Source: Pseudomonadota bacterium
Lineage (GTDB): Bacteria > Chloroflexota > UBA5177
NCBI GenBank assembly: GCA_021324655.1
Contig: JAJPIP010000010.1
Coordinates: forward strand, 1-38,179
DNA: 38,179 nucleotides
Direction: 5' to 3'
How positions within the stretch are numbered: the first letter of the stretch is position 1; every line of letters begins with the position of its first letter. Made by a program: the position numbers and the translations under genes. The notes beneath the pieces are model-generated. The model saw only the letters and a program-made list of their open reading frames with translations. It was not told where the DNA came from and made no database searches. Below, piece after piece: positions 15,114-38,032 of this stretch.

Positions 15114-15209
15114 GTCGTGGCCGGCCCCGAGTGGTGGCCGGCCACAGGGCTCCACCTCAGGTGCTTGACTAATACGTCAAGGCTGGCGGCCACTCGGGGC
15201 CGCCACTAC
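15114..15209. repeat. Inverted pair of REP elements (BIME)
   Basis: A forward copy (15114-15143, core GGCCCCGAGTGGTGGCCGG) and a reverse copy (15181-15209, core GGCGGCCACTCGGGGCCGCC) face each other across a 37-base spacer. They belong to the same family as the copies around the transposase at 33-34 kb. The pair lies between the 3' ends of two convergent genes, a typical REP location. Confidence 0.8.
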
Positions 15210-33394: not shown

Positions 33395-33458
33395 CCGGGT
33401 CGGATTCCCTCGGAAACCCCGTCGTGGCCGACCCGAACGCCGTTCCCGCGCAATGGCC

Positions 33459-33488
33459 GTAGCGGCCGCCCCGAGTGGCGACCAGCCC
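33459..33488 (+). repeat. REP element, forward copy 1
   Basis: A 30-base unit with core GCGGCCGCCCCGAGTGGCGA, two bases different from the copy at 33546. It lies upstream of the RAYT gene. A further degenerate partial copy is near 33417-33440. Confidence 0.75.
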
Positions 33489-33545
33489 TATGGTAGAGGT
33501 TATGTAGTGGCTTCCTTGTCGTTGCCAGTCTGTCGATTCCACCGT

Positions 33546-33575
33546 GTAGTGGCCGCCCCGAGTGGCGGCCAGCCC
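33546..33575 (+). repeat. REP element, forward copy 2
   Basis: A 30-base unit with core GTGGCCGCCCCGAGTGGCGG. It is the exact reverse complement of the copy at 34291-34320 on the other side of the transposase gene. A truncated unit follows at 33577-33594. Confidence 0.85.
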
Positions 33576-33616
33576 CGTGGTAGCGGCCAGCCAGGTCCTG
33601 GATGCCATACTCCTTC

Positions 33617-34225
33617 ATGTCGACCAGCCATTACCCTTCCCGCCGTGCCCAGCGTCTCGCCTCGTACGACTACTCAACTCCGGGCGCCTACTTCGTCACG
33701 CTCTGCGTCCAGGATCGCCTGCGACTGTTTGGCCACGTCGAGAGCAGCCAGGTGCATCACTCGCTGGCGGGGGACCTCGTCGTTTCCCTCTGGCAGGAGA
33801 TTCCTGATCGTTATCCCTGGGTCACACTCGACACCCTCATGGTGATGCCCGATCACCTGCATGCCATCGTGATCCTCGACGGCGGGATCTCAGCACCGGA
33901 TAGTGGAGGCCCCGAGCCACCGGCCGCCGTGGGCTGGCCGCCACTCGGGGCGGCTACTACGGCGACGACGGAGGCCACGACGGCGTCTTCGCCCCCGCCT
34001 GTCTCCCTCTCCGAGTTAGTCCATCATCTGAAAGCCCGGACGACCGCCCGGTATACGCTGGGCGTCCGGGAGCACGGGTGGACCTGTTTTCACGGAACCC
34101 TCTGGCAACGCAGCTTCTATGACAGAGTAATTCGGGACGAGGACGAACTGAATCGAATCCGGGAGTACATCCTGCAGAATCCGCTGCGGTGGGGAATAAA
34201 GACGCAGGGAGCGTCCTGGGAATGA
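33617..34225 (+). CDS. REP-associated tyrosine transposase (RAYT, TnpA_REP)
   Basis: Encodes 202 residues of the IS200-like Y1 transposase branch tied to REP sequences. The HUH motif is H80-L81-H82 in VMPDHLHAIVIL, and the catalytic tyrosine is Y184 in IREYILQNPLRWG; DYSTPGAYFVTLCVQ is the typical N-terminal strand. Residues about 95-115 (DSGGPEPPAAVGWPPLGAATT) are encoded by a REP pair inserted in frame in the loop after the HUH motif. The start at ATG 33617 begins the conserved part; an in-frame ATG at 33602 is also possible. No strong ribosome binding site. REP copies flank it in inverted orientation. Confidence 0.88.
   Translation: MSTSHYPSRRAQRLASYDYSTPGAYFVTLCVQDRLRLFGHVESSQVHHSLAGDLVVSLWQEIPDRYPWVTLDTLMVMPDHLHAIVILDGGISAPDSGGPEPPAAVGWPPLGAATTATTEATTASSPPPVSLSELVHHLKARTTARYTLGVREHGWTCFHGTLWQRSFYDRVIRDEDELNRIREYILQNPLRWGIKTQGASWE
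33900..33929 (+). repeat. REP element, degenerate forward copy inside the RAYT gene
   Basis: TAGTGGAGGCCCCGAGCCAC and following bases resemble the forward REP unit. Together with the reverse copy directly after it, it makes an inverted pair within the coding sequence. Confidence 0.5.
33931..33960 (-). repeat. REP element, reverse copy inside the RAYT gene
   Basis: A 30-base unit with core CTGGCCGCCACTCGGGGCGG, one base different from the copy at 34291-34320. It is read in frame as VGWPPLGAATT (residues 105-115). Confidence 0.85.
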
Positions 34226-34257
34226 GGGCTCTCCTCTTGGTCGAGAGGTCGTGAGGA

Positions 34258-34289
34258 GGGCTGGCCGCCACCACGGGGCTAGCCACTAC
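34258..34289 (-). repeat. REP element, degenerate reverse copy
   Basis: A 32-base unit similar to the reverse REP copies (GGGCTGGCCGCCACCACGGG...), in tandem with the intact copy at 34291. Confidence 0.7.
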
Positions 34290-34290
34290 G

Positions 34291-34320
34291 GGGCTGGCCG
34301 CCACTCGGGGCGGCCACTAC
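34291..34320 (-). repeat. REP element, reverse copy downstream of RAYT
   Basis: Exact reverse complement of the unit at 33546-33575, so the transposase gene is bracketed by identical inverted copies. A truncated unit continues at about 34321-34357. Confidence 0.85.
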
Positions 34321-34380
34321 ACGGTGGCCACTACACGGTGGGCACGACCGGGCGGCCGCACGCGGAGATTCCTGGGACGC

Positions 34381-37711: not shown

Positions 37712-38032
37712 ATGCTGAGCCGTCTGGTCATGGCCGCGTTTGTAGCGGCCGGCGTCGCGGTGCCACTGATCCGGATGCACGATCAAACAGGCCCGGTGAC
37801 GTTCGACGACTCCTCATCAGACCGCCTGGTCATCCGTGCTCCGTCTTACCAGGTCGCTCTCAGCAAAGCGAATGGGTCCTTGCTGAGCATTGCTGCCTCA
37901 GGGCTCGTGCATTATGGGCATCGCCAGGTTGTCGTGGCCGGCCCGAGTGCCGGCCAGCCTGTCGCCGGCGCAGACCACACCGGGCTGGTCGCCACGCGGG
38001 GCGACCACGACCGGCTAATTCACCAGCCCTAA
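37712..38032 (+). pseudogene. Truncated secreted-protein gene cut by a REP pair
   Basis: The first ~68 codons (MLSRLVMAAFVAAGVAVPLI as signal peptide, then DRLVIRAPSYQVALSKANGS) resemble the start of a large exported protein with a beta-rich domain; RLVIRAPSYQVAL...SLLSI is a typical opening strand pair. After residue ~73 the reading frame runs through a REP pair (37931-38011) and stops at 38032, giving a tail of repeat-encoded residues. GGGGAAGGGG precedes the ATG. I take it as a remnant whose 3' part was lost or displaced. The parent family is not identified. Confidence 0.5.
37931..38011. repeat. Inverted pair of REP elements (BIME)
   Basis: Forward copy 37931-37959 (GTCGTGGCCGGCCCGAGTGC...) and reverse copy 37982-38011 (GGGCTGGTCGCCACGCGGGG...) face each other across 22 bases. 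They are the GTCGTGG variant of the family seen around the RAYT gene. Confidence 0.8.

Follow-up and report, generated by a model that had tools for sequence, protein, structure and literature searches.

A predicted RAYT transposase gene of Chloroflexota carries its own flanking REP in frame within a variable loop

RAYTs, transposases of the TnpA_REP type, process single-stranded GTAG-REP hairpins in E. coli and others (PMC8266576). The presence of REPs inside the transposase gene itself is likewise on record. Quentin et al. 2018 (PMC6006769) reported that tnpA_REP genes of subclass 2.4 hold in-frame REPs, generally between the HUH motif and the catalytic tyrosine, where they form a peripheral extension; strand 3 and helix C border the variable region concerned. 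In that account in-gene REPs are a feature of subclass 2.4 only, which is further characterized by the motifs NH[IFV]H, WQ and YIxNNP and by 8 aa inserted where helix B ends; subclass 2.7 displays [ND]HVH, WQ and YI[LR][NQ]NP, and Chloroflexota are mentioned once, inside a pooled group. REPs also lie inside many other genes (Di Nocera et al. 2013, PMC3733652). Like the locus described below, these intragenic REPs and the Rickettsia palindromic elements are palindromic repeats read in frame in genes, probably in loops, but the host genes in that study are mostly unrelated to the transposase of the element, unlike the gene considered here. An in-frame REP inside a tnpA_REP gene is of a kind already known since 2018, and the initial sequence-only reading of our locus, which presented the arrangement as unusual, erred in this respect.

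The locus belongs to a Chloroflexota genome of 3.8 Mb in 114 contigs, and its coordinates are given as positions in the window, by which we mean the whole 38,179-nt stretch of DNA that was analysed (Table 1). The 207-aa open reading frame scores above the cut-off of the Pfam Y1_Tnp model. Against the NCBIfam model REP_Tyr_transpos (NF047646) it reaches 68.5 bits, under the cut-off of 80, with the match split in two stretches; the loop insert probably costs score against this model, and the shortfall weakens the RAYT label only slightly. The AlphaFold model displays the Y1 transposase fold and matches, in a fold search, the TnpA structures of IS608 and ISDra2 (IS200/IS605) and that of E. coli TnpA_REP bound to its REP (4ER8); the last is retrieved clearly by fold and weakly (E 0.51) by a sequence-only search of solved structures, and shares 15% identity with our protein in the fold alignment. 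An Rfam search gave no match. In a 19-row alignment of relatives, H85, H87, Y189, N193 and P194 are invariant, and the catalytic residues are predicted to be intact. By sequence and modelled fold, the protein would be a RAYT, that is, a HUH/Tyr transposase of the TnpA_REP type; the Y1_Tnp match, the fold match and the flanking repeats together bear out the earlier description of a RAYT bracketed by inverted REPs.

Table 1. Positions of the transposase gene, its motifs and the REP units in the window
Feature	Position	Strand	Remark
REP copy, 2 mismatches, GTAG foot 5'	33459..33488	+	upstream of RAYT gene
Upstream REP, GTAG-TGGCCGCC-CCGAGT-GGCGGCCA-GCCC	33546..33575	+	hairpin behind free GTAG foot
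Predicted RAYT / TnpA_REP gene, 207 aa, HUH-Y1 transposase	33602..34225	+	
HUH motif (H85-L-H87)	33854..33862	+	both His invariant in alignment
Variable loop, residues about 93-135	33878..34006	+	between strand 85-92 and helix 136-158
Degenerate REP copy, 20/30	33900..33929	+	within gene
In-frame REP copy, 29/30	33931..33960	-	encodes about GWPPLGAATT, residues 110-120
Catalytic Tyr codon (Y189 of YILQNP)	34166..34168	+	invariant in alignment
Degenerate REP-like unit, downstream	34258..34289	-	belongs to palindromic flank
Downstream REP	34291..34320	-	exact inverse of 33546-33575

How does this protein relate to the described subclasses? Its motifs are DHLH, WQ and YILQNP. The locus resembles subclass 2.4, whose REPs are long or double-footed, in combining flanking REPs with an in-frame REP between HUH and Tyr. 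It differs in its motifs, where DHLH replaces NH[IFV]H and YILQNP replaces YIxNNP, so that only WQ fits, and in that its REP is single-footed. Judged by these motifs, it would not be a clean member of that subclass. With subclass 2.7 it has in common WQ, the YI[LR][NQ]NP pattern, long canonical GT[AG]G REPs and a variable distance between HUH and Tyr, but not the HUH motif, which is DHLH rather than [ND]HVH. Finally, E. coli TnpA_REP (4ER8) shares the HUH-Y1 fold, the GTAG foot followed by a hairpin and the REP-bracketed gene; it is without a comparable post-HUH insert, and its REP stem is bulged.

The REP unit of the locus is 30 nt long. Its GTAG foot is followed by a stem of 8 bp that closes a loop of 6 nt, and as single-stranded DNA it folds into a hairpin behind the free GTAG (z = -4.4). 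The exact inversion of the upstream unit (GTAGTGGCCGCCCCGAGTGGCGGCCAGCCC, 33546-33575) in the downstream one (34291-34320), and the single mismatch of the reverse copy within the gene, both agree with the sequence-only reading, from whose list the copy farthest upstream was absent. Five matches with no more than 3 mismatches are observed, against none in shuffles of the window. In the palindromic flank, 33509-33584 and 34282-34357 are 80% complementary. At 15115-15209, far from RAYTs, the window also contains an inverted REP pair with a GGCGGCC/GGCCGCC stem variant (27/30, mate 20/30).

A relaxed REP motif has 78 matches in the genome and none in the reversed control; further REPs thus exist beyond the locus, though the exact stem/loop variant of the window is confined to it, with four copies of the local variant within 0.9 kb and no copy at up to 1 mismatch elsewhere in the 3.8 Mb. 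When 25 distinct REP versions are compared, 97% of stem cells are paired and 23 cells are compensatory double changes, a number that falls to 6.7 on shuffling and to 0-2 in slid controls: the REP stem is maintained by compensatory changes in this genome. None of 20 other REP-containing ORFs tested in the genome has a Pfam domain spanning the REP. These ORFs are Pfam-less, and as such may still be genes, except for three with the REP upstream of the domain, where it probably precedes the true start.

Many of the dispersed REPs are carried by a MITE-like element of 131 bp with 17-nt TIRs (AGGGCTCGTGCATTATC) that enclose two REPs in inverted orientation (GTCG/GTAG foot); of this element we count 36 copies among L013, L015, L019, L154-L193 and the window (37900-38030). 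Its target duplications are mostly 9-12 bp long, with a mean score of 7.6 versus 0.6 in permuted flanks. To our knowledge, Y1 enzymes are not expected to create target duplications, and the MITE has therefore probably been spread by another transposase. The MITE-borne REPs seem to travel with a transposition system other than that of the RAYTs.

Several further RAYTs are present in the same genome. One of them (L147, contig C17, 31111-31686, minus strand) is associated with a REP type unlike that of the window, which is found upstream of the gene, in the same loop and downstream, and has 2 more copies dispersed in the genome. Two loci, L151 (C84:30688-31123) and L152 (C38:2358-2618), are RAYT remnants with a frame change and stop codons; a MITE-borne REP pair is situated about 0.9 kb away from the former.

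The reading frame of the window gene is open throughout its 207 codons, and homologues can be aligned in this frame both before and after the insert, which upholds the claim that the REP is read in frame in the loop after the HUH motif. In the predicted structure, the strand 85-92 carries HUH and the in-gene REP sits in the low-confidence loop, with block mean pLDDT of 51-72 versus at least 90 in the core; the extent first proposed, residues 90-128, was right within a few residues. The degenerate forward copy that had been mentioned alongside can be placed at 33900-33929, where a 20/30 match has P of about 0.0005 in codon-shuffled controls of equal span. The two copies are oriented with GTAG outwards at both ends, in a REPIN-like manner. 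One stem pair of the in-gene REP is broken, and degradation has left its mate with 20/30 matches; the in-gene pair, and with it the hairpin, is decaying.

We compared 68 RAYTs from a draw of 400 Chloroflexota genomes. The genus is represented by one genome and the family, order and class by 5-7 genomes. The post-HUH loop ranges from 12 to 79 aa among relatives and the shortest loops are without REPs, in line with the suggestion that its length varies with REP content. We scored an own-flank match when a loop 24-mer recurred at 21/24 or better in the flanks of its gene (about 1.5 kb), a statistic that takes the best of many positions. Such matches occur in 29 of the 68 RAYTs and in 29 of the 59 with a loop of at least 24 aa, so that about half of the long-loop relatives carry their own REPs, and the loop is not one that recurs without REP likeness. 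The rest of the gene, although longer than the loop, matches its own flanks in 5/68, including one case (L139) explained by a second in-gene REP. The count of 29/68 is probably a lower bound, because REPs beyond the flanks of about 1.5 kb are missed; the closest flank match to the loop REP of L139 is 1.3 kb off. Many loop REP matches are locus-specific (in the window 24/24 to its own flanks, 18/24 to the best other), and some REP types are common to related loci. Hairpins of at least 8 bp are found in 43 loops versus 20 of the longer remainders.

The reading phase of the inserted repeats is not uniform. The 5' GTRG foot falls in phases 0/1/2 in 15, 4 and 0 cases (GTA-Gxx, xGT-AGx and xxG-TAG, the last containing a stop), and the 3' CYAC foot in 9, 19 and 1, all three phases being in use. 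The variation of phases and the disuse of the stop phase favour repeated insertions, sifted by the need to keep the frame open. Several REP types and several hairpin lengths are represented among the loop REPs. L139 and L128, whose genomes are assigned to different families within the phylum, are sister genes whose DNA is largely alike outside the loop, while their loop REPs differ. The sister row of the window gene, L037, has a REP-free loop of 16 aa, at weak support (94/36), and the tree of RAYTs as a whole has many weak forks with REP-free short loops interspersed.

Other peculiarities of these genes are worth recording. L128 and L139 possess a second in-frame REP directly before the helix of the catalytic Tyr, the two versions of which differ by compensatory changes. 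In L112, L131 and L137 the arms of the loop REP (approximately GTAGGGGCGACCCG / CGGGTCGCCCCTAC) stand ~75 nt apart, with other coding sequence in between. The post-HUH loops of L106, L091, L104 and L120 contain the short tandem peptide repeats VGAKN, QARG, GTGTVPLRKP and PLPGRA, which suggests slippage at REP-derived sequence.

What could be the origin of the REP inside the gene? We consider it highly probable that the locus is a REPtron in which the RAYT gene has captured its own REP locally and repeatedly, in a tolerant post-HUH loop, where it encodes a disordered peptide. By analogy with E. coli and other TnpA_REP work, the RAYT would recognise its REP in single-stranded form, by the GTAG foot and the hairpin, and would move or copy this REP mainly in cis. 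Some copies would land in the RAYT gene, and the survivors would be those that are in frame, free of stops and located in the variable loop. Loop copies could later be replaced by or homogenised with the flanking REPs, and each RAYT would therefore carry its own REP type. The argument draws on the own-flank matches and their location, the open frame, the recurrence in other RAYTs, and the varied phases that avoid the stop. With the genus sampled by one genome, we infer the insertion event itself; the RAYT would be the putative mover, and the insert presumably has next to no effect on the protein. The pattern expected of RAYT action is also the one expected of gene conversion or replication slippage.

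The strongest rival explanation, though an unlikely one, supposes that gene conversion or recombination among nearby repeats keeps the loop and flanking REPs alike, and that an ancestor gained the loop REP a single time, with no involvement of the RAYT in its placement. Nearly all REP-bearing loops indeed use one site, and a single 3'-foot phase dominates (19/29); these signs of a common origin have to be set against the several phases and hairpin lengths, the interspersion of REP-free short loops on the tree and the second in-gene site in L128 and L139. Rather doubtful to us is an extension of local capture in which the REP copy in the gene, far from passive, serves as a cis target or a self-limiting switch; for this reason RAYT genes would take up their current cognate REP again and again in one loop, and the loop would record the substrate that the enzyme now uses.

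Even less probable is an autoregulatory function of the in-gene REP, whose hairpin in mRNA or single-stranded DNA would slow expression, or to which the RAYT would bind and thereby limit its own gene. The recurrence of own-REP loops that track the flanking REPs would suit such a role, as would the in-gene stems of L139 and L128, which stay complementary despite base changes. In the window, however, the insert RNA gains only modest fold stability over its shuffles (z = -1.7; 8/200), and the broken stem pair and degraded mate speak against a maintained structure, as do the many relatives whose loops of 12-20 aa have no REP. The hairpin is moreover situated mid-gene, ~100 codons from the start codon, and elongating ribosomes normally melt mid-gene mRNA hairpins. 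An mRNA attenuator is accordingly rated unlikely, and the earlier proposal that the hairpin limits translation finds no support in these results. Chance resemblance of low-complexity GC-rich coding sequence to a REP, conceivable in a GC-rich genome and for a peptide with many A, P, G and T residues, is refuted by the counts (29/30 identity versus 0 matches in shuffles) and by the recurrence of lineage-specific REPs in other RAYTs, and we give it practically no credence.

Local capture of the cognate REP by the RAYT gene thus remains our preferred reading. What is new here is the count for one phylum sample, the frequent match of the loop REP to the gene's own flanking REP and the variety of reading phases; the occurrence in about half of the longer loops puts a figure on the qualitative report of 2018. 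The loop REP provides a pairing of a RAYT with its cognate REP from sequence alone, even in draft genomes with multiple RAYTs. The insertions, which are many and seem independent of one another, constitute natural tests of a possible cis preference of RAYTs.
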